Shown here one piece after another: positions 28,713-41,108 of a stretch of DNA of 58,454 nucleotides. Location of the stretch: positions 1 to 58,454 of the forward strand of contig VGXU01000010.1 of NCBI GenBank assembly GCA_016873215.1. Direction: 5' to 3'. Under the pieces are notes generated by a model. It was not told where the DNA came from, made no database searches, and worked only from the letters and a program-made list of their open reading frames with translations. The translations under genes and the position numbers were made by a program. This DNA is from Planctomycetota bacterium (lineage in GTDB: Bacteria; Planctomycetota; Phycisphaerae; Sedimentisphaerales; Anaerohalosphaeraceae). Positions within the stretch are counted from its first letter, which is position 1; each line of letters starts with the position of its first letter.

Positions 28713-31700
28713 ATGGCGATACGTTTTATCCTCGGCACAAGCGGTTCTGGCAAGACACGGCGGTGTGTTGACGCCATTGCCGCCGCTCTGCGCGATGGAG
28801 GGACGGATCCGCTGGTATTTCTGGTTCCCGAACAAGCAACATTTCAGGCGGAACGGGCGATATTGTCGTGTGCGGGGGTGTCGGGGTACAGCCGGTTGCA
28901 GGTGCTGTCGTTTAACCGGCTGCAATTTCGGTTGTGCCGGGGCGGGGTGCGGAGTGAATTGACTCCGCTGGGCCGGCAAATGCTGGTTCGGCAGGCATTG
29001 TCGTCTTGTGCGGACAGCTTGCAGGTATTACGGCCCAGCGCGGCGACGGCGGGAATGGCGGCGGCGCTGGCAAATTTGATTCGCCGGCTGCACGAAGATA
29101 ATTGTGCGCCCGACGGACTTGAGGCGGCGGCACGCGAGATATTGGCCAAAGACGCGGACAATCCGACGGGCCGGAAACTGGCGGATATCGCCCTTGTTTT
29201 TCGGCGTTATGTGGAATTATTGTCCCGGCCGGGACGCGAGTTTCTCAACCCCGATGCGCTGCTGACAGAGGCAAGGGCGAAAGTCAAGGACACGGCATTT
29301 CTGAAAGGCGCCCGGCTGTGGATAGACGGGTTTTCCGGATTTACTTTGCAGCAGCGGGATTTGCTTTTTGAGATGCTGTCGGTATGCCGGGGGGCGGATA
29401 TCGCGTTGTGTCTGGACGGGCAGTCCATAGATTTGAATGATGCCGACCCGGAGAAATTGGACCCGGCGTCGCTGTTTGCGCCGACGGAGCGGACTTATGT
29501 CGATTTGCTGGCGATACTGCGAAATCGTAAAATGCCTATGGCGGAACCGATGATTTTATCCCGGCATCCGCGTTTTAAATCGGCTGCGGCGCTGGAACAT
29601 ATCGAGCGGAATTTCTTTTCGCCGGAGGCGAAGGCTGTGTCGGCGGGTGACGCGATTGAAATTCGCGGGTTGGCGGATATTCGCGCGGAAGCGTTTTTTG
29701 TCGCGGGACATATCCGCCGGCTTGTGCGCCAACAAAAATTGCGCTACCGCGACATCGCTGTTATTGCGCCGGATATTCATCTTTATGCACATTACTTGGC
29801 GGGGGCGTTTGAGCAATATAAGATACCGTATTTTCTCGACCGGCCGCAGGAACTGCAAAGTCATCCGCTGATGGAATTATTAATCGGCGCGCTGCGAGCG
29901 GTGCAGTCCGGCTTTGCGTTGTCATCGATGTCGGCGCTGCTGAAGATTGACTGGAACGGGCTGGATTCCCTGGAGGCTGATACGCTCGATAATTACTGCC
30001 GGGCTTTTGGTGTGGGAGAGGAAGACTGGATTTCGGATGCGCCGTGGGATTTAGGCGGTGAGGAACCGTCGTTTGCGCCCCAGCGTATAAATACGCTGCG
30101 AAAGAAATTCTTTGTGCCATTCGGGGCATTGGCCGGGCGATTGCAGGGTTTGATTACCGCGCGGCAGGGTGTTGAAGCGATTGGGGAATTGCTCGAAAAG
30201 CTGAATATCCGGAACAAACTTGCCAACGAATCACAAAATGACCCGCAGGATAATCAATTCGCGCATCGGCGTGTGTGGAAAAAGATGCAGGAGACATTTG
30301 AGGAATTGACGGGCGTTTTCGGTGATGACACAATGAACGCTTCGGAGATGACGGCGGTGCTGCTGGAGGTTTTTTCGTCGCTGACGCTCAAGCAGATACC
30401 GCCGGCGGCGGATGAGGTTTTGATCGGTTCGATTGAACGCAGTCGGCATCCGGAAATCAAGGTTGCGTTTTTGCCGGGGGCGACGCAAAAGCTGTTTCCC
30501 GTTCCGCTGGTGCAGGATGCGCTGTTGACGGAAGAAGATACGCAATTGGCGGCTAAAGCAAACCTGCCGCTAACGCAGCCGCTGGAGCAGGCGCTTTCGG
30601 CGAGGCGGTATCTGGCTTATATTGCGCTGACCCGCGCTTCGGAGCGGCTGTATATCACGTTTCCGCTGACGGACGAGAAAGAATCGGCGACGGCGCCGTG
30701 GCCGGGGCTGGAACGGCTTTGTGAATTGTGCGATGGGCTGCACATTCACTATGGAATCCCGGCGGAGTTGTCTCGGCCCGAAAATATCTCCACTCCCGCG
30801 CTGACAGAGTGGTTCTGTGCTGCGCTTGGGCCGGAAAGCGATTGCGACGAAAAGACAAAGTCGCAGGCGCGAAATCTGCTGTCTTGCTGCAAGGCGTCGG
30901 AGGATGCGACATTAGTAAATCTGTGCGGCGATGTGGAATATGCGTTAAGCTATCGCAACGAAGCGAAACTGGAGCAAACAATTATTTCGCAAATGTCGAA
31001 CGGGCCGCTGAAGACCTCGGCCAGCAAATTGACTTCGTTTGCGACGTGTCCGTATCAGTATTTTGCGAAGTATGGTTTGCGGCTGAAGAAACGTGACTTG
31101 ACGGGGCTAAAGCCCATTGATATCGGGGATTTTTATCACGCCATTCTCCAGCGGCTATTTATGGAGTTGTACGGCCGGGGGCTTGACTGGACGAATGTCG
31201 CCGAAACGGAGCTGGCGGAAAGCTGCCAGCGTGTCGCGGAAGAAATTTTGCAGACCAATAGTCGGCTGTCGGCGTTTATGCGCGGTGGGGCGTATAATGC
31301 TTATATTATTCAACAGGCGGTAAGCGGACTGGCGGAGTTTCTGCCGAACCTGGCGGCGATGAGCGCCGCCGGACAATTCCGGCAGAAAGCGGCGGAGGTG
31401 GAATTCGGTAAAGAAGGGCCTGCGGTGGCGATTGAAATTGAAAAAGGCAAATCCATTCATCTTCGCGGAAAAATCGACCGTATCGATTGCGCGGATATCG
31501 ACGGGCGGTGGACGGGAATTGTATTTGATTACAAGACCGGCAGTTCGACGACACGATTAAAATGGGCGAAATTTTATCACGGACTGGATTTGCAGTTGGC
31601 GGCGTATCTGCTTGCGCTGCGGCACCAGGTGATTGCGAACCGGCCGATGGAGTGGGTGGCGGGGGCGTTTTATCTGCCGATAGAGAGACCGCTGGATAAG

Positions 31701-32126
31701 GCGGATTTGGCAAAGCTCAGTGAGGAGAAAATATCGGTCGTAAAAGCGCGCGGCGTATTTGACGGGCATTTCGCTTTTGATTTGGAAGAGGTGCCTGCAG
31801 GAGAATACAGCCGATTTTACGGTTTCAGCGTCGATAGCAAAGAAAATCAGCCATACTCCCGTTATTCAACCAGCGACGCAGTCAAACCTGAAGAATTTTC
31901 CGCGGTGCTGCGATTTGCCGAAGAAAAAATTCGCACGCTGGGTAAGGGAATTGTGTCGGGCGATATTCGCGCGTTTCCGTATCGGCTGGGGACGCAAAGT
32001 CCGTGTGCGCATTGCGATTACAAGCCCGTGTGCAAATTCGACTGGCAGTTAAACGAGTATCATTTTCTGTCGTCGATGAATAAAGAGGGTGTTTTGAATG
32101 CCGCCGGCGGGGGGGGCGCGCGATGA
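28713..32126 (+). CDS. addB: AddB-type helicase-nuclease subunit
   Basis: AddB is the partner of AddA in double-strand break processing for recombination. A Walker A motif, GTSGSGKT, lies at residues 8-15. The C-terminal nuclease shows KIDRID and VFDYKTG (RecB-like PD-(D/E)XK fold). A cysteine in FATCPYQYF and a cluster CAHCDYKPVC near the end form the family's iron-sulfur site. At 1137 residues it is within the family range. GGGAG precedes the ATG. The gene overlaps addA by four bases. Confidence 0.9.
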   Translation: MAIRFILGTSGSGKTRRCVDAIAAALRDGGTDPLVFLVPEQATFQAERAILSCAGVSGYSRLQVLSFNRLQFRLCRGGVRSELTPLGRQMLVRQALSSCADSLQVLRPSAATAGMAAALANLIRRLHEDNCAPDGLEAAAREILAKDADNPTGRKLADIALVFRRYVELLSRPGREFLNPDALLTEARAKVKDTAFLKGARLWIDGFSGFTLQQRDLLFEMLSVCRGADIALCLDGQSIDLNDADPEKLDPASLFAPTERTYVDLLAILRNRKMPMAEPMILSRHPRFKSAAALEHIERNFFSPEAKAVSAGDAIEIRGLADIRAEAFFVAGHIRRLVRQQKLRYRDIAVIAPDIHLYAHYLAGAFEQYKIPYFLDRPQELQSHPLMELLIGALRAVQSGFALSSMSALLKIDWNGLDSLEADTLDNYCRAFGVGEEDWISDAPWDLGGEEPSFAPQRINTLRKKFFVPFGALAGRLQGLITARQGVEAIGELLEKLNIRNKLANESQNDPQDNQFAHRRVWKKMQETFEELTGVFGDDTMNASEMTAVLLEVFSSLTLKQIPPAADEVLIGSIERSRHPEIKVAFLPGATQKLFPVPLVQDALLTEEDTQLAAKANLPLTQPLEQALSARRYLAYIALTRASERLYITFPLTDEKESATAPWPGLERLCELCDGLHIHYGIPAELSRPENISTPALTEWFCAALGPESDCDEKTKSQARNLLSCCKASEDATLVNLCGDVEYALSYRNEAKLEQTIISQMSNGPLKTSASKLTSFATCPYQYFAKYGLRLKKRDLTGLKPIDIGDFYHAILQRLFMELYGRGLDWTNVAETELAESCQRVAEEILQTNSRLSAFMRGGAYNAYIIQQAVSGLAEFLPNLAAMSAAGQFRQKAAEVEFGKEGPAVAIEIEKGKSIHLRGKIDRIDCADIDGRWTGIVFDYKTGSSTTRLKWAKFYHGLDLQLAAYLLALRHQVIANRPMEWVAGAFYLPIERPLDKADLAKLSEEKISVVKARGVFDGHFAFDLEEVPAGEYSRFYGFSVDSKENQPYSRYSTSDAVKPEEFSAVLRFAEEKIRTLGKGIVSGDIRAFPYRLGTQSPCAHCDYKPVCKFDWQLNEYHFLSSMNKEGVLNAAGGGGAR

Positions 32127-35100
32127 GAAAGATTAACTGGAAACCCGCGCAGCGGCGTGCGATAGAGACAATCGGTCGGAATGTGCTGGTGACGGCCTCG
32201 GCGGGCACAGGTAAGACGGCCGTGCTGAGTGAACGCTGCGTGCTGCGCATCTGCGACGGCGAACGCCCGATTGATGTTGAGCAGGTGCTGGTATTGACCT
32301 TTACCGACTCAGCGGCGGAAGAAATGAAAGGCCGCATCGCGAAAAAGCTGTATGAAGTTTATCTGCAAAACCCCGGCGATGCGCATCTGCGAAAACAGAT
32401 GGTACGCTTAGACGCGGCGGCCATCGGCACGATTCATTCATTTTGCAAACGCATTTTGACGGAGCATTTTTACCTGGCGGGGCTGGGCCCGCGATTTGGC
32501 ATCCTCGACGAAGACCAGCAGAAACTTGTTCGTGCGCGGGCGGTGACGGCGGCGATTGAAGCGGCATGGAACGACCCGGCGTTAACCGGCGGAATGCAGG
32601 CGCTTTTTGAAGGGCGCGTCGCGGGCGGCCGGCAAACGTTTGCCGATGCGCTTCTGCGTCTGGCGGGTTTTTTAGACAGCGTGTCCGACCGAAACGCATT
32701 TTATGAGTCAGCGACGCGTTTGGCGGCGGACAGTCCTGAGTCCTACGATATTTTGGCGCAGTTCCAGTTTGAGCATCTGCGGCGGCGGCTTTATCTGTGC
32801 CGGGATATGCTGATTTATGCTCGCTCGCTCGATAATACGCTGGCGGCGGGGCAATACCTGACGGCCTATATTGAGGAAATTCTTGCGTCGCTGGAAAGCT
32901 GTCTTGAGGCGATACGGCGGGATGATTTAGACACGACGGCGGAAATGATACGGCAGTGGGAGTTTTCGAGGATGCCGTCGCTGTCGAAAAAACTGGAAAT
33001 AGACAAAGAAGACGCCGAGCGGATTAAAGAGCTGGTGGATTGGGCCAGAAAAAAAATCAGGGCACTCAAAGAGCTGGTTTTGTTTGAGCCGGAGTATCTG
33101 CGGCTTGTCGCGCCGCTTGCGGATGCACAGACACGGACATTGATATCACTGCTGCGCGTCTTTGACGGCGAATACGCGGCGGCCAAGCGGGCGATGGGCG
33201 TGCTGGATTTCGCCGACCTCGAACACAAGACACTTGAATTATTTAAAATGCATCCGGCGGTGGCGGAAAAACTGTGTCAGCGGTTCGCGTATGTTTTTGT
33301 GGATGAATATCAGGATATCAACGACGTGCAGCAGCGGATTCTGGAGGCGGTCAGCCGGGGCGATAATGTGTTTGTCGTCGGCGACGTCAAGCAGAGTATT
33401 TACGCATTTCGTCAGAGCCGGCCGGAGATTTTTCTGCAGCGGCTGTCGGCGGCGACGGATAAACCGAAATCAGCCGGCGAGGCGATGCGGGTCGATATGA
33501 ATGATAATTTCCGTTCCCGGCGGGAAATTCTGGCATTTGTCAACCGCGTGTTCGGGCGGATTATGACGCAATCCGTCGCGGGTGTGGATTACTTCGGCCG
33601 CGCGGAATTGGAGGCGGGGCTGGATTACCCGCCGCTCAAAGGCGATACGCCGATAGATCGCAAGGCCGTGGAGTTTTATCTGCTTGATGAACAAAGTCCG
33701 GAGTACGAAGACTCCGCCGATGAATCGGAAGAAGCGGATGAAAATGAAATGGTCCCGTTCAATCATTTCGCCACCGCCGTGCAGCGTCAGGCGGCGTTTA
33801 TCGCGCAGCGTATCCGACGGATGGTCGGGGCGGCCTCGGGCCGGGCGGAATTTGAAGTGATGGATAAATACACCGGACAGATGCGGCCGGTGGAGTATCG
33901 CGATATCGTGATTCTGATGCGCGCGACGTCCGGGCGTGCGCCGCAATACGTGGAGTTGTTGCGGCTGGCGGGGATTCCGGTCAGCTCGCAGAGTCCGTGC
34001 GGCTATTTCGCTGCGACGGAAGTGACGGATTTTCTGGCGCTGCTGCGGGTTCTTGATAATCCATTGCAGGATATTGAACTGGCGGCGGTATTGCGCAGTG
34101 TGCTGTTTCGATTCACGGATTCGGAATTGGCGGCGGTTCGATTCTTTGCCGACGGCAGCGGCGACAATAAATGTGCGTTTTATGAAATAGCATGGCGTTA
34201 TGGTGAAAATGGGCCGGATGTGAAGCTGCGGCAAAAGACGGACGAGACCCTGCGAATGCTTCAGGCGTGGCGTGTGGAGGCCCGTCGGAAACCCCTGTCG
34301 GAATTGATTTGGCGGATTCTGGAGGAACGAAATTTTCTGGCGTTTGTGTCGGCGCTGCCCAACGGGCCGCAGCGTCGCGCCAATCTGCTTAAACTTCACG
34401 GCCGGGCGGTACAGTTTGAATCGTTCACCGCCGCAGGCGAGGGGAACAACCTGGCGGCCTTTGTGGCGTTTCTGGAAAAACTGCTCGAGGAAGAATCGGA
34501 CTGGGCGGCGGCGCAGCCACAAACGGGCGTGGAGAATGCCGTGCGCATCATGAGCGTTCATAAAAGCAAGGGGCTGGAATTTCCGGTGGTGTTTGCGGCG
34601 GAATTGAACCGGCCGTTCCGCAATACCGACGGCGGCGGAGCGTGCGAGATTGACAGCAGGATGCTTGGCCTTGAAGTGCCGGACCGCAGGCATGGCGTCA
34701 GGCTGACCAGCCCGGCGCATCAGCTTATTCGGCAAAGCGCCCGGCAAAGCGCGATTGCCGAAGAAATGCGGATTTTGTACGTGGCGATGACGCGGGCGCG
34801 CGACCGGCTTATTTTAACCGCGTCACGAGAGGCCCGGGACTGTCGGAAAATTTTAAGTCGTCTGCCCCGACTGGAAATCGTGCCGGATTGGATATTGCTC
34901 GACGCGGCCAGTCATCTCGACTGGGTGCTGGCGGCATTGGCCGGTTCGGATGCGGTCGGTCAAATGGTGGATTCGGATACGCAGGAGGTTTTCGAGGACG
35001 ATTTGTTTGTCGCGTCGCGCATCGGCAAAGACCAGCTCAACGTACTGACGGCGGAGATGCTCAACCGCAAGGGCCGACGCGGTAAAACGTATGAACCGGT

Positions 35101-35842
35101 GACGGCCGGAAGCGATGAGCCTGAGGCGCGGCGATTGTTTGAGCAAATCCGCAATGCGCAGCAATGGCGGTATCCTTATGAGGGATTGACGGGACTGAAC
35201 GCCAAGTTTTCCGTCAGCGCATTGACGCATCGCGATGACGAATTCGCGCGGACGGCAATCGAATTTTCTTTTACTGAAACAAAATCATCCAGCGACAACG
35301 GCGACGCCCTTGCGCTGGGCAGCGCGGCGCACTTGGTTTTTCAACATCTGCCCTTAGCGAAAGCGATGGATGAGACGGTCATTCGAGAGACGATTGCCGG
35401 CCTGTTGGCGCAAAATCAAATATCGGCCGGGCAGGTGGAAAAAATAGATATCGCAGCCATCGCATCGTTTTTCCGAACGGACATGGGGCGGAGAGTGCTT
35501 GAGCATAGCGGCGAGGTGCTGCGGGAATGGCCGTTCACGATGGCGCTGCCTGTCAGCAAACTGGGTATTGATCGCCCCGGCGAATCGGTGGTCGTACAGG
35601 GTATCGTTGATCTCATTATTCCCGCCGAGGAAGGACTGATTCTGGTGGACTTCAAGACTGACAGAATTTCATCGGAAGGTGTTGCCCGGCGGGCCGAACA
35701 GTATCAATCGCAGCTTGCATTGTATGCCTGCGCCGCCGGGACCATTTTGAAAAAGCCCATCGTTGCGGCGTATTTGTATTTTCTCCATCCTCGAACGCTT
35801 TATCCGGTGCCGTTTCATCAAATTGCACTTACGAATATTTAA
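32123..35842 (+). CDS. addA: AddA-type helicase-nuclease subunit
   Basis: The 1239-residue protein is a UvrD-like superfamily 1 helicase with a C-terminal nuclease. Walker A is TASAGTGKTAVL near 29, motif II VDEYQDIN near 393, motif III VGDVKQSIYAFR near 420, and later VMSVHKSKGLEFPVVF-like sequence and LYVAMTRARDRL. The nuclease domain ends with VDLIIPAEEGLILVDFKTD. Together with AddB it resects DNA ends. The start overlaps addB (ATGA). Confidence 0.92.
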   Translation: MRKINWKPAQRRAIETIGRNVLVTASAGTGKTAVLSERCVLRICDGERPIDVEQVLVLTFTDSAAEEMKGRIAKKLYEVYLQNPGDAHLRKQMVRLDAAAIGTIHSFCKRILTEHFYLAGLGPRFGILDEDQQKLVRARAVTAAIEAAWNDPALTGGMQALFEGRVAGGRQTFADALLRLAGFLDSVSDRNAFYESATRLAADSPESYDILAQFQFEHLRRRLYLCRDMLIYARSLDNTLAAGQYLTAYIEEILASLESCLEAIRRDDLDTTAEMIRQWEFSRMPSLSKKLEIDKEDAERIKELVDWARKKIRALKELVLFEPEYLRLVAPLADAQTRTLISLLRVFDGEYAAAKRAMGVLDFADLEHKTLELFKMHPAVAEKLCQRFAYVFVDEYQDINDVQQRILEAVSRGDNVFVVGDVKQSIYAFRQSRPEIFLQRLSAATDKPKSAGEAMRVDMNDNFRSRREILAFVNRVFGRIMTQSVAGVDYFGRAELEAGLDYPPLKGDTPIDRKAVEFYLLDEQSPEYEDSADESEEADENEMVPFNHFATAVQRQAAFIAQRIRRMVGAASGRAEFEVMDKYTGQMRPVEYRDIVILMRATSGRAPQYVELLRLAGIPVSSQSPCGYFAATEVTDFLALLRVLDNPLQDIELAAVLRSVLFRFTDSELAAVRFFADGSGDNKCAFYEIAWRYGENGPDVKLRQKTDETLRMLQAWRVEARRKPLSELIWRILEERNFLAFVSALPNGPQRRANLLKLHGRAVQFESFTAAGEGNNLAAFVAFLEKLLEEESDWAAAQPQTGVENAVRIMSVHKSKGLEFPVVFAAELNRPFRNTDGGGACEIDSRMLGLEVPDRRHGVRLTSPAHQLIRQSARQSAIAEEMRILYVAMTRARDRLILTASREARDCRKILSRLPRLEIVPDWILLDAASHLDWVLAALAGSDAVGQMVDSDTQEVFEDDLFVASRIGKDQLNVLTAEMLNRKGRRGKTYEPVTAGSDEPEARRLFEQIRNAQQWRYPYEGLTGLNAKFSVSALTHRDDEFARTAIEFSFTETKSSSDNGDALALGSAAHLVFQHLPLAKAMDETVIRETIAGLLAQNQISAGQVEKIDIAAIASFFRTDMGRRVLEHSGEVLREWPFTMALPVSKLGIDRPGESVVVQGIVDLIIPAEEGLILVDFKTDRISSEGVARRAEQYQSQLALYACAAGTILKKPIVAAYLYFLHPRTLYPVPFHQIALTNI

Positions 35843-35970: not shown

Positions 35971-35999
35971 TTGAGTGGAAATCCGCAATATTATATAAT
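35971..35999 (+). promoter_or_regulatory. Promoter of the small transcription unit
   Basis: TTGAGT (35971-35976) and a perfect TATAAT (35994-35999) are spaced by 17 bases. Transcription would begin near 36006, just before two tiny ORFs and a terminator. Confidence 0.6.
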
Positions 36000-36008
36000 A
36001 CGGAAGTG

Positions 36009-36074
36009 ATGAAAGTTATGGCTTCGGCTGCGGGGGGTTTGAAAGAAAAGAACACTATTTTTTGGGGAGATTAA
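36009..36074 (+). CDS. Possible 21-residue leader ORF
   Basis: ATG 36009 opens a 21-codon frame (starts MKVMASAAGG, ends FWGD) whose stop precedes the next ATG by one base. The next gene's ribosome-binding site lies within its end. Lack of a clear own ribosome-binding site makes translation uncertain. Confidence 0.3.
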   Translation: MKVMASAAGGLKEKNTIFWGD

Positions 36075-36075
36075 A

Positions 36076-36171
36076 ATGGCTCGCTTTTATGCAAAGGTGT
36101 GGCTGCCGTTTATGGAGCCGAAAAAGAGAATTCTGCTTCTTGCTTTAGCTGCGTACATTGCGATGTGTTAA
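36076..36171 (+). CDS. Small hydrophobic protein (31 residues)
   Basis: The ORF encodes 31 residues starting MARFYAKVWLPF, then a KKR turn and a hydrophobic stretch ending ALAAYIAMC, which may insert in a membrane. GGGGAG lies 6 bases before the ATG. A promoter with consensus -10 is upstream and a strong terminator follows, so it looks like an independent unit of about 220 bases. I know no family for it. It may also be a small RNA that carries a short ORF. Confidence 0.45.
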   Translation: MARFYAKVWLPFMEPKKRILLLALAAYIAMC

Positions 36172-36194
36172 TCTGACAGTTGTCTTTTGAAGTG

Positions 36195-36227
36195 AAAAGG
36201 CCGACCTGGGTCGGCCTTTTTTTATGC
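36195..36227. terminator. Bidirectional terminator
   Basis: AAAAGGCCGAC-CTGG-GTCGGCCTTTT is an eleven-pair hairpin followed by TTT on the plus strand. It ends the small plus-strand unit and, read in reverse, could end the histidine kinase gene at 36251. Confidence 0.85.
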
Positions 36228-36250
36228 GCCGAAAAAGACTCCCGGCCCTT

Positions 36251-39200
36251 TTAATTCTCTGGAGTTTTTGGTGCCGGGGCGGTTGGCGGTTGCGCAGGCT
36301 GTGCGGGCGTCTGGAGCGAATCCGCCAGTTGCTGCGTTTCATTGCGCAGCTTTTCGACCTGCTCGGTCAGGGGATCGGCGTTCTTTGAGGATATTAAGTA
36401 GGTCTGCAATACTTCCGCCAGCTTGATTTTATTGATGGGCTTGGTTATGTGGTCATCGCATCCGGCCTCGATACATTTCTGGCGGTCTCCTTCCATTGCG
36501 TGGGCCGTCAGGGCGACAATCGGCGTTTTAAGGCCTTTTTCCCGTAACATCCGCGTGGCCTCATAGCCATTCATATTGGGCATTTGAATGTCCATAAAAA
36601 TCAAATCAAACGACTCTTCCGCAGCTTTTTTGACCGCTTCCGCGCCGTCGCAGGCCAGCACAAATTGCAGCCCAAACTTTGTCAGCAGAGTTTCAATCAA
36701 AAGCTGGTTGTTGGGGTTGTCTTCCACGACGAGGATGCGCCCCGAACCTTTTTTTGGGGGTTCATATTTTTTCTCCGATTCCGGCAGAGCGAAGGACGGC
36801 TTTTGTTCGGGAACATCTAAACCGGTCGGGATGACCAGCGAGAAAACAGAACCCATTCCTTCTTCGCTGGTTAAAGTCAGCTCGCCGCCCAGAAGCCTTG
36901 CCAATTGTTTCGTGATGGTCAGTCCCAATCCTGTTCCGCCATACTTGCGAGTGGTGTCGCCATTGGCCTGGACGAACGGCTCGAAAATCTTCTGCTGTTT
37001 ATCGGCGGGGATACCAATGCCTGTGTCTTCAACGTCAAAGCGGATACAAGACTGATCGTTTTTATTTTCGAGAGAAACACGAATGTTTACCTGTCCTTTT
37101 TCGGTGAATTTAATGGCGTTATTGACCAGGTTGATCAGACATTGCTGCACACGGGCGCCGTCGGTGTATATGTCCATGGGCAGGTCGCTGCTTGTCAGAA
37201 TCTCGAATTTCAGGCCTTTTTTGACGACCGCAGGATGGATCATGGATCCAATCGCGGCCAGCAGATTTTTGAGGGAGCACTCATTTTTCTCAACGTCCAG
37301 CTTGCCGGCCTCAATCTTGGAAAAATCCAGAATATCATTGATGACCTGCAGCAGATGTCTGCCGCTGTTGCTGATGGTGTTGACGTACTCTCTCTGCTGG
37401 TCCGTCAGGTCTTCGTCCAGTAAAATGTCGCCGAAGCCTATAATGGCGTTCATCGGGGTGCGGATTTCGTGACTCATATTGGCCAAAAACTGGCTCTTGG
37501 CCGTATTGGCGGAATCCGCCTGAATTTTGGCCTCTATCAATTCTTTTTCCGCATTTTTGCGGTCGGTGATGTCGGTGATGATATTGCCGACCATCTGAGG
37601 CGTTCCCTGCTCATCGCGGATAAGGAAAATATTCTGCTCGGTAAGAATCAGGTTTCCTTTGGCAGAAAGAAGCGGGAGTTCTCCTGTCCATTGCCCCTGC
37701 TCGATTACGATCGGAAGAATCTCTTTTGTCAGTCGCTCAGCATCCTGCGGAATATAGTATTGGTAAAATGTCTTGCGGAGGAAATCCTCCTCACGCTCTT
37801 CTTCGACGATACGGAGCGTGGCGGCGTTGACGAAGATTAACTGGCCGGTCAAATTGCCCATCGCAAAGCCGTAATTCGATGCTACGGCGAACCGACGGAA
37901 TCGTTCCTCGCTTTTCTGCACCGTCGCAAAGGCCGTACCGAGTTGTCGTTCCGCCGTACCGGTAACAGACCAGAGCAGAATCAGCACGCCGCCAAACAGC
38001 ACAATGGATAAGCTCAGATTCAGTAGCAGGTTGCTTCGAGCCACGCTGTTCCCGATGGCTACATCCCGCATAACGACGAGATCCGCCACATTGCGGCCTG
38101 CGGCATCGGGCAGATGGATAATCCCGCAGGAAAATCTTTTTTCACCCTGTCGAGCGTCGAATGCCTTGTCTCCTGAGTTCGTCTTGAGGTTATTTTCAAG
38201 GCGGCGCACCACTTCATTGGGCAGGTCTGGAATGGCCTGATTGACCACTACGAAATCGGGATAGGCATCCCATTGTCCGGCATAGCCAAATGTTTTTTTC
38301 CCCGCCTCGAATTTGTCCCGCGAGATATATTCTTTCCGGATGACGTTCAGTAAATTGACATCTATATTCTCGGCCAGTTTAGTTACCAGATGCTCAATCT
38401 CCATGCCCAGTTCCAGGTAGCCGATCGTTTTGCCATCCTGCTTCCACGGTTTCACATACCGAAGCGTAAAAGTTCCCAGCGGGCCCAACTCAAGGCCCCA
38501 TGTGTCCTCCCCCGTCTTCTCCGCCGCGAGCAGTGTAAAGCGGTCGATACGGTCACCGTAACGCTCGGGCTGATGCGCCCGCAGAAAACATATCCGGTCG
38601 GGCGATATGAAGGTGCAGTGGGTTATTTTATAGTCCCGCTTCAACTGCTCATGGGCCGGTTTCGCCAGAGCCGTAAGCGAAGAAAGTTCCCTGTCCTGCC
38701 ATGCCTTCAGCATTGCCGAATTGACGGCGATGTGGTCTATCTGTGCCTTGAGAAGCCCAACTTCCGAGACGATGCTTTGAGTCCATCCCGCCTCGACCTG
38801 TCCTGTGACGCGGAGCATGTTCCGTTTGGATTCCTCGCAGGTATTCTTATACTCATACGCCCCAAAGAGTATCAATACGATGAGTACGGCACAGGCGGTC
38901 GGAGCAACGATCCACACCCTGTATTTCAGCGTGTCTGATTTCATCCACCGGTTACGCAGATGGACGACTACCGCTCCGCCTGCAAGAATTAGAATCAGGG
39001 CAAACGTAATAAGAATCGGCTCTCTGCGGACGGCGTTGAGCTGCGCCTGCCAGTCGCTGGCCAGAAAATCCACGCAAACCGCCATCAGGACTTCGCCGCT
39101 ATACGGATCGAGAACAGGGATAAGCGCCGAAATGAAAGTTCCATATTCGTCCGTGAGAGGTCCAACTGTGGCCGGATGTTTGTCTTTGAAAATCCGGAAG

Positions 39201-39634
39201 TCTTCCGGCGTCGGCTGCTCGTATTCCGTCCCCGGCGGGCTGGCCATTGGGTCATCCTCAGGATAGTTTTCCGGCCCGAAGAATATCTTTCCATCACGCA
39301 GAAATTCGCTGTAAACGCCGCGCTGCGAAAAACCTTTACCCGCGGCAGTCATCTGTTCTCTGATCTGCTCAAAAGCCGGCGTACCCTTGTCCGCCGCCGT
39401 GAAGGTAAGTTTTTTCGCCAATTGAGGATTGACGGCGAAGGCAATCTCCTTTGTCTTGTCAAGCAGATGCTTCCGCATCTCGGCATCCCTGCCTGCCGCC
39501 CGCCGATTGCCGACCTGCCAGCTCAAGGCAAGCAGCAACCCTATCATCGCCACAGCCAGCGTCCCGGCCGTAATCTTCGAGCGGCGCGGTCGAAACAGCG
39601 ACATTTTCAGTGAATACGGTCTTAATTTTTGCAT
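36251..39634 (-). CDS. Hybrid sensor histidine kinase with receiver domain
   Basis: The 1127-residue protein has four hydrophobic segments (about 21-42, 205-225, 238-260, 540-560) flanking two extracytoplasmic regions. A PAS domain (about 580-695) follows, then HisKA with phosphoacceptor His722 in SHEIRTPMNAI, a HATPase domain (about 830-950, DVEDTGIGIP) and a receiver domain with Asp1015 in FMDIQMPN. A Pro/Ala-rich tail ends it. The ligand is unknown and no response regulator is adjacent. AAGGA stands 9 bases before ATG 39634, so I prefer it to an upstream in-frame ATG. Confidence 0.92.
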   Translation of the reverse strand: MQKLRPYSLKMSLFRPRRSKITAGTLAVAMIGLLLALSWQVGNRRAAGRDAEMRKHLLDKTKEIAFAVNPQLAKKLTFTAADKGTPAFEQIREQMTAAGKGFSQRGVYSEFLRDGKIFFGPENYPEDDPMASPPGTEYEQPTPEDFRIFKDKHPATVGPLTDEYGTFISALIPVLDPYSGEVLMAVCVDFLASDWQAQLNAVRREPILITFALILILAGGAVVVHLRNRWMKSDTLKYRVWIVAPTACAVLIVLILFGAYEYKNTCEESKRNMLRVTGQVEAGWTQSIVSEVGLLKAQIDHIAVNSAMLKAWQDRELSSLTALAKPAHEQLKRDYKITHCTFISPDRICFLRAHQPERYGDRIDRFTLLAAEKTGEDTWGLELGPLGTFTLRYVKPWKQDGKTIGYLELGMEIEHLVTKLAENIDVNLLNVIRKEYISRDKFEAGKKTFGYAGQWDAYPDFVVVNQAIPDLPNEVVRRLENNLKTNSGDKAFDARQGEKRFSCGIIHLPDAAGRNVADLVVMRDVAIGNSVARSNLLLNLSLSIVLFGGVLILLWSVTGTAERQLGTAFATVQKSEERFRRFAVASNYGFAMGNLTGQLIFVNAATLRIVEEEREEDFLRKTFYQYYIPQDAERLTKEILPIVIEQGQWTGELPLLSAKGNLILTEQNIFLIRDEQGTPQMVGNIITDITDRKNAEKELIEAKIQADSANTAKSQFLANMSHEIRTPMNAIIGFGDILLDEDLTDQQREYVNTISNSGRHLLQVINDILDFSKIEAGKLDVEKNECSLKNLLAAIGSMIHPAVVKKGLKFEILTSSDLPMDIYTDGARVQQCLINLVNNAIKFTEKGQVNIRVSLENKNDQSCIRFDVEDTGIGIPADKQQKIFEPFVQANGDTTRKYGGTGLGLTITKQLARLLGGELTLTSEEGMGSVFSLVIPTGLDVPEQKPSFALPESEKKYEPPKKGSGRILVVEDNPNNQLLIETLLTKFGLQFVLACDGAEAVKKAAEESFDLIFMDIQMPNMNGYEATRMLREKGLKTPIVALTAHAMEGDRQKCIEAGCDDHITKPINKIKLAEVLQTYLISSKNADPLTEQVEKLRNETQQLADSLQTPAQPAQPPTAPAPKTPEN

Positions 39635-39832
39635 TGTTGCAGTTCCTTGCAGGTTCACAGATTGGATTTTTTCAGAACGGGAATGTTGAATTATCCAGCC
39701 GATCAACACATTCGAGCCGTCCCGAAATACCCAAACTCAATCACTTTGAATCGCTTCTAAACAAGCGAGCTATGTTCATTATTGTTCCTTAAATAAAGCG
39801 CTAACTAATTTCTGTTGCGGATACGTGTCCGT

Positions 39833-40133: not shown

Positions 40134-41108
40134 ATGATTATTATTACCGGCGGGGCGGGATTTATTGGTTCGGCGCTGGCGGCCCAATTGAATGCCCGCG
40201 GCGCCGACGACATTTTGATTGTCGATTTGCTCGGCACAAACGAACGATGGAAAAATCTTCGCAAACTTCGCTTTGTGGATTATATGGAGGCCGACGATTT
40301 CGCGCAGGCGCTGGATTCGGACCAGATCGAATGGGATGTCGAGGCGATTCTGCACCTCGGGGCCTGTTCGGATACCACGGAAACGGACGCGAGCTTCCTG
40401 ATTCGCAATAACTATGAATACAGCAAAATGCTGGCGCAATGGGCCGTCGAACACCAGGTGCGTTTTGTTTACGCTTCCAGCGCGGCGACCTATGGCGACG
40501 GCTCGGCGGGATTTTCCGACAGCGAGCCGATTGAACAACTGATACCGCTGAATATGTACGGCTACAGCAAGCAGCTTTTTGACCTGTGGGCCAAACGCAC
40601 GGGCGTGGCGGAACAGATCGCGGGACTGAAATACTTCAACGTCTTCGGCCCCAACGAATATCACAAGGGCGAGATGCGGAGTTTTGTCCACAAGGCCTTT
40701 GAGCAAATCAACGCCGGCGGCAAAGTCCGGCTGTTCGAATCGCACCGGCCGGAGTATGCCAACGGGATGCAGCTTCGCGATTTCCTGTATATCAAGGACG
40801 CCGTGGATATGACGCTGTTTTTCCTTGGGAATCCCGACATTAATGGCATTTTCAATATCGGCACCGGCCAGGCACGATCGTGGCTGGATTTGGCCAATGC
40901 CGTTTTTGCCGCGATGGGCAAAACGCCGAATATCGAGTTTATCCCGATGCCCGAAAAGCTGCGCGACAAGTACCAGTATTTCACACAGGCAGACATTTCT
41001 AAACTCCGTCAGGTGGGCTATCGCAAAAACACCACCGACCTCGAATCCGCCGTCGCCGACTATGTGCAGAATTATTTAATGAAGGATGAATACCTCGGAG
41101 CGGAATAG
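40134..41108 (+). CDS. hldD: ADP-L-glycero-D-manno-heptose 6-epimerase
   Basis: The enzyme makes the heptose donor for the lipopolysaccharide inner core. The 324-residue extended SDR protein starts MIIITGGAGFIGSALAAQLN with the NADP-binding Gly motif. The YGYSK sequence near 142-146 holds the catalytic Tyr and Lys, and SSAATYGDG precedes it. FNVFGPNEYHKGEMRS is characteristic of HldD. GGGAG stands before the ATG. The other heptose genes are not in the window. Confidence 0.93.
   Translation: MIIITGGAGFIGSALAAQLNARGADDILIVDLLGTNERWKNLRKLRFVDYMEADDFAQALDSDQIEWDVEAILHLGACSDTTETDASFLIRNNYEYSKMLAQWAVEHQVRFVYASSAATYGDGSAGFSDSEPIEQLIPLNMYGYSKQLFDLWAKRTGVAEQIAGLKYFNVFGPNEYHKGEMRSFVHKAFEQINAGGKVRLFESHRPEYANGMQLRDFLYIKDAVDMTLFFLGNPDINGIFNIGTGQARSWLDLANAVFAAMGKTPNIEFIPMPEKLRDKYQYFTQADISKLRQVGYRKNTTDLESAVADYVQNYLMKDEYLGAE

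Follow-up and report, generated by a model that had tools for sequence, protein, structure and literature searches.

The DNA analysed here (the window, a 58,454-nt stretch of a planctomycetal contig) carries addB-addA at 28713-35842 and, downstream, a convergent gene for a hybrid histidine kinase on the minus strand (36251-39709). In the short interval between the two, the initial annotation had recognized a promoter, two very small open reading frames (ORFs) and a terminator, and the question is whether this interval holds a real gene and, if so, what its product might do.

All elements of the unit lie on the plus strand. A -35 box TTGAGT (35971-35976) and a -10 box TATAAT (35994-35999), recovered by a scan of the window and separated by 17 bases as had been proposed, together match the consensus at 10 of 12 positions; promoter-like matches of this quality are not rare in the window alone (2 found versus 0.8 expected). 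The promoter is followed by a 21-codon ORF (36009-36074), which spans the heptamer GGCTTCG (36020-36026), and by a ribosome-binding site GGGGAG (36064-36069) located 6 bases 5' of the ATG of a 31-codon ORF (36076-36171, stop codon included), the product of which is MARFYAKVWLPFMEPKKRILLLALAAYIAMC. An intrinsic terminator (36194-36223) closes the unit, with a predicted 12-bp hairpin (36194-36221) running into seven T residues and the T-run ending at 36223, in agreement with the initial annotation; the hairpin was seen by folding and was omitted by a consensus scan, probably since A and T runs pair. A similar arrangement is found at homologous loci in related genomes. Upstream of the ORFs, the best sigma-70-like scores have a mean of 9.4 out of 12 (shuffled sequences, 7.8), a TATAAT-like box is present at 84 of 84 loci versus 46% of shuffles, purine-rich sites precede many of the homologous ORFs, and 65 of 85 ORFs are followed by a hairpin with a T-run, an arrangement seen in 1.2% of shuffles. 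Because the anatomy recurs at homologous loci, we judge it to be more than chance and the unit to be real.

With MARFYAKVWLPFMEPKKRILLLALAAYIAMC as a single query, 73 of 98 related genomes gave homologues (E 0.001 or better). A 17-row profile (A1) extended the count to 136 of 161 genomes of the Sedimentisphaerales (Planctomycetota), nearly always with one copy per genome; one of the 136 matches, that in G160, is partial and does not have the terminal cysteine and stop codon. The same profile matches 59 of the 66 good-quality genomes in Sedimentisphaerales. Several good genomes, the complete G041, G046 and G050 among them, yielded no match, and the gene is therefore not essential in every member of the order. 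What is conserved in the 31-codon ORF is the protein, and the conservation follows codons, which the initial annotation had named as a check on its proposal: when 85 distinct coding sequences are compared, synonymous changes make up 78.5% of the codon differences that involve one base, versus 24.9% expected for random changes. Pairs drawn from related sequences are not independent, but this effect is a large one. Codon positions 1, 2 and 3 hold 26, 16 and 58% of the differences, respectively, and compared with its two nearest distinct relatives, the window sequence shows 11 and 12 synonymous and 6 and 6 non-synonymous codons. This pattern indicates that selection acts on the encoded peptide, and the 31-codon ORF is a real gene, the 31-residue product of which is probably membrane-bound.

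A shared feature of the family is a cysteine directly before the stop codon (Cys-stop), which is found in the homologues save for a few partial or spurious matches and which ends all of the first 20 loci, read without a pattern filter. In the 17-row alignment, also made without such a filter, Y5, W9, P11, F12, K16, R18, L22, A23, Y27, A29 and C31 are invariant. Family f5 of the Sedimentisphaerales encodes divergent versions, mostly still with a basic, hydrophobic, Cys-stop tail, and when these are added, K16, L22 and C31 remain invariant.

The family extends beyond the order. Profile A2 (35 rows; E 0.05 or better) matched 180 of 397 genomes of the class Phycisphaerae, including members of other orders, and 39 of the 40 out-of-order matches inspected are short ORFs with a cysteine right before the stop; the remaining one (L180) was rejected as spurious. 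A third profile, A3 (42 rows), matched 24 genomes in a phylum sample of 392, all but one within Phycisphaerae; the sole out-of-class match (L209) does not have the Cys-stop, whereas 15 of 15 out-of-order matches within the class inspected with this profile have it. In total, 54 of the 56 out-of-order matches inspected carry the Cys-stop, a feature that the profiles do not encode, and the homologues in other orders are short ORFs ending A-[LM]-Cys-stop. No valid homologue was seen outside Phycisphaerae in the phylum sample, in the family libraries or in pattern-limited searches of genomes and viral contigs. Overall, the alignments indicate that the microprotein is conserved as a protein across Sedimentisphaerales and that its C-terminal half is conserved across the class.

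The explanation that we consider likely is that the locus is a stand-alone gene, present in single copy and flanked by a promoter and a terminator of its own, for a 31-residue membrane microprotein that acts in trans. The KKR cluster (residues 16-18) would lie at the cytoplasmic face, with residues 19-31 in the membrane and the chain ending in Cys31. Less certainly, the microprotein might serve in trans as a small accessory or regulatory component of a membrane complex with a housekeeping role, to which it could bind via the W-x-P-F segment, the KKR cluster and Cys31. A bolder version, which we hold only tentatively, is that this is a class-defining microprotein of Phycisphaerae, the terminal cysteine of which is a functional site (for docking, or for metal, thiol or lipid chemistry) in a so far unrecognised component of a membrane machine that is widespread in these bacteria.

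The region ahead of the microprotein gene raises the possibility that the transcript is also a regulatory RNA, with GGCUUCG near its 5' end as the active element. The heptamer GGCTTCG occurs close to the 5' end of the mRNA in 26 of 85 loci versus 0.4% expected in shuffles, and in 21 aligned leaders, it is invariant while the flanks and the reading frame vary; these leaders were picked for GGCTTCG before alignment, so that the invariance is partly by construction. The motif is limited to the window's family and a few other loci, such as that of G043 in family f6, whereas the peptide is found class-wide. Furthermore, no consensus RNA structure was found around the motif, for which RNAalifold predicts no pairs, and the motif is equally compatible with translation control. 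A dual function of the RNA thus appears unlikely, and GGCTTCG may serve in translation control or as the binding site of a partner, either RNA or protein. Two more specific proposals were rejected: a 6-bp stem at the motif pairs in 70.6% of cells versus 67.0% in shuffles, and counts of GGCTTCG after TATAAT, as expected of a genome-wide regulon element, were not consistently above those of a reversed-pattern control. As for the 21-codon ORF that spans the motif, it is present in the window as initially annotated but is not conserved as a protein among relatives: in sister species, the frame either runs on into that of the microprotein or is closed by a stop only a few codons along, and several relatives do not have its ATG. 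Assuming that transcription starts about 7 bases past the -10 box, this ORF would begin only a few bases from the RNA 5' end, without a ribosome site.

The peptide itself resembles, in part, a signal peptide, so that one alternative is a precursor whose end is processed to a short signalling peptide or to a lipid-modified cysteine. The KKR cluster, the following stretch of about 12 hydrophobic residues and the cysteine are all reminiscent of lipoprotein signal peptides. Lipoboxes, however, require a small residue before the cysteine, and position 30 is leucine or methionine in all 95 sequences tallied, which were gathered by a Cys-stop pattern that left this position free; the residue preceding the cysteine is thus not a small one, and nothing follows the cysteine. 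We therefore regard a processed precursor as quite improbable. The 13 hydrophobic residues after the KKR cluster (19-31) have a mean hydropathy of 2.65. Following the positive-inside rule, by which basic residues ahead of a hydrophobic end place the N-terminus in the cytoplasm, the basic cluster suggests a cytoplasmic N-terminus of the microprotein. AlphaFold2, run with 51 rows, yielded one helix (residues 2-30) with a mean pLDDT of 77.9, about 92 for residues 21-30, and a low pTM of 0.32, although a lone helix says little. Given that 13 hydrophobic residues are few for a complete crossing of the membrane, the topology is uncertain, and the peptide may rest in the interface, or may span the membrane only if its aromatic N-terminal part also is inserted. 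Accordingly, of the membrane microprotein missed by conventional annotation that had been suggested for this locus, the microprotein is borne out by order-wide conservation and a strong synonymous bias, whereas its membrane insertion is a prediction.

Small hydrophobic proteins also occur as toxins of type I toxin-antitoxin systems, in which they are held in check by antisense RNA, and the size, charge and hydrophobicity of the microprotein are like those of known small membrane toxins. Against a toxin, the gene is present order-wide and mostly in single copy; antisense promoter-like sites show no excess (7.4 versus 7.9 in shuffles), defence models gave no match beyond one weak one, and no viral relatives were found in pattern-limited searches. 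A toxin is accordingly disfavoured, and we consider it very improbable.

The surroundings of the gene bear on yet another possibility, namely, that translating the ORF determines whether transcription ends at the hairpin and hence whether the next gene is expressed, as in a leader-peptide system. The terminator indeed lies close behind a short ORF, and in 39 of 78 Sedimentisphaerales loci, the next gene in the same direction is hldD, which encodes ADP-heptose epimerase (TIGR02197). However, in 35 of 37 loci followed by hldD, versus 3.5 expected, a TTGAC core is found no more than 75 bases past the chosen T-run (in some loci, the T-run chosen by the script precedes the hairpin, and there TTGAC still follows the hairpin). 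Because this element comes after the microprotein terminator, hldD is apparently transcribed separately, and because in nearly all cases hldD comes with a TTGAC element of its own, its attenuation is unlikely. Furthermore, in the window, a convergent gene comes next and hldD lies 4 kb off, and loci without an adjacent hldD conserve the peptide just as well. Whereas a leader peptide calls for a controlled gene downstream in the same transcript, the sequences point to a unit that ends at its own terminator, and we find the leader-peptide proposal of the initial annotation highly improbable. The other proposal made there, a purely non-coding small RNA, is not supported, given that conservation follows codons and no Rfam family matches at the unit at the gathering level.

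The microprotein gene thus looks like a separate transcription unit, and it is kept as its neighbours vary among hldD, a Fur-family gene or, as in the window, addA and the histidine kinase gene. In the window, the latter separates the microprotein gene from hldD (40134-41108), the two being adjacent in many relatives. Of the 35 loci from other orders of the class, 10 (L182, L188, L191-L197 and L199) have a Fur-family gene directly beside the microprotein gene in convergent orientation, and tatC- and tatA-like genes are located upstream, on the opposite strand, in about 20 Sedimentisphaerales loci. None of these genes, nor tyrS, ftsY or others, was retained as a partner suggested by neighbourhood, given that the neighbours change with the clade. 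A synteny-guided pattern search for the microprotein beside hldD in four genomes in which only hldD had been found gave no candidate.

To place the microprotein among known families, we searched several libraries. Across the whole window, Rfam recognized only a tRNA at the gathering level, and phage records gave no DNA match. Neither viral contigs, searched with pattern-limited sensitivity, nor Pfam, NCBIfam, PHROGs, PADLOC and PDB sequences yielded a relative of the microprotein or anything convincing for it, respectively. Two of 17 members show a weak profile similarity to the CVP-CTERM putative sorting domain (NF058574; E 0.11), far from significance, and whereas NF058574 is by name a C-terminal sorting domain, the microprotein gene comprises 31 codons in all. 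Similarly, 2 of 42 class-wide members match Pfam DUF2964 (PF11177; best E 0.00044), whereas the window protein and the others do not, and these matches most likely reflect chance similarity of short hydrophobic sequences. Among the open-access papers that we searched, none describes the microprotein, although an earlier, unnamed listing in small-protein catalogues is possible.

The closest analogues in kind are small bacterial membrane proteins such as AcrZ, CydX, MgtS and YohP, which have fewer than 50 residues and bind larger membrane proteins. AcrZ is reported to bind the transmembrane part of AcrB (PMC7267776), and YohP is described as a small membrane protein (PMC12719787). The parallels are the length and a small gene of its own, of the sort that is often missed by annotation, and a single hydrophobic helix like theirs is predicted for the microprotein. 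As in that group, a conserved coding ORF of fewer than 50 codons is found here, with a synonymous fraction of 0.785 versus 0.249 expected. Unlike those proteins, to which no sequence relation was found, the microprotein has a shorter hydrophobic part and a conserved C-terminal cysteine, and it is conserved through a class. Because no family match was found, the microprotein appears to represent a new family of this kind rather than a member of a named one. A widespread, constrained gene that is absent from the searched family libraries is a concrete example of what genome annotation overlooks, and the microprotein offers a directly testable entry point to membrane biology in a class that has been little studied, being sharply defined and having conserved residues to mutate.

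The terminator of the unit has a further feature. Its T-run is followed by ATGCGC (36224-36229), which is present at most homologous terminators and also at other terminators of these genomes, where the succession of hairpin, T-run and ATGCGC is common (in the window, 36217-36229, as well as in related genomes). The 11-mer TTTTTATGCGC is commoner than its reversed control in all five genomes counted, and many other TTTTTATGCGC sites inspected likewise consist of a hairpin and a T-run.
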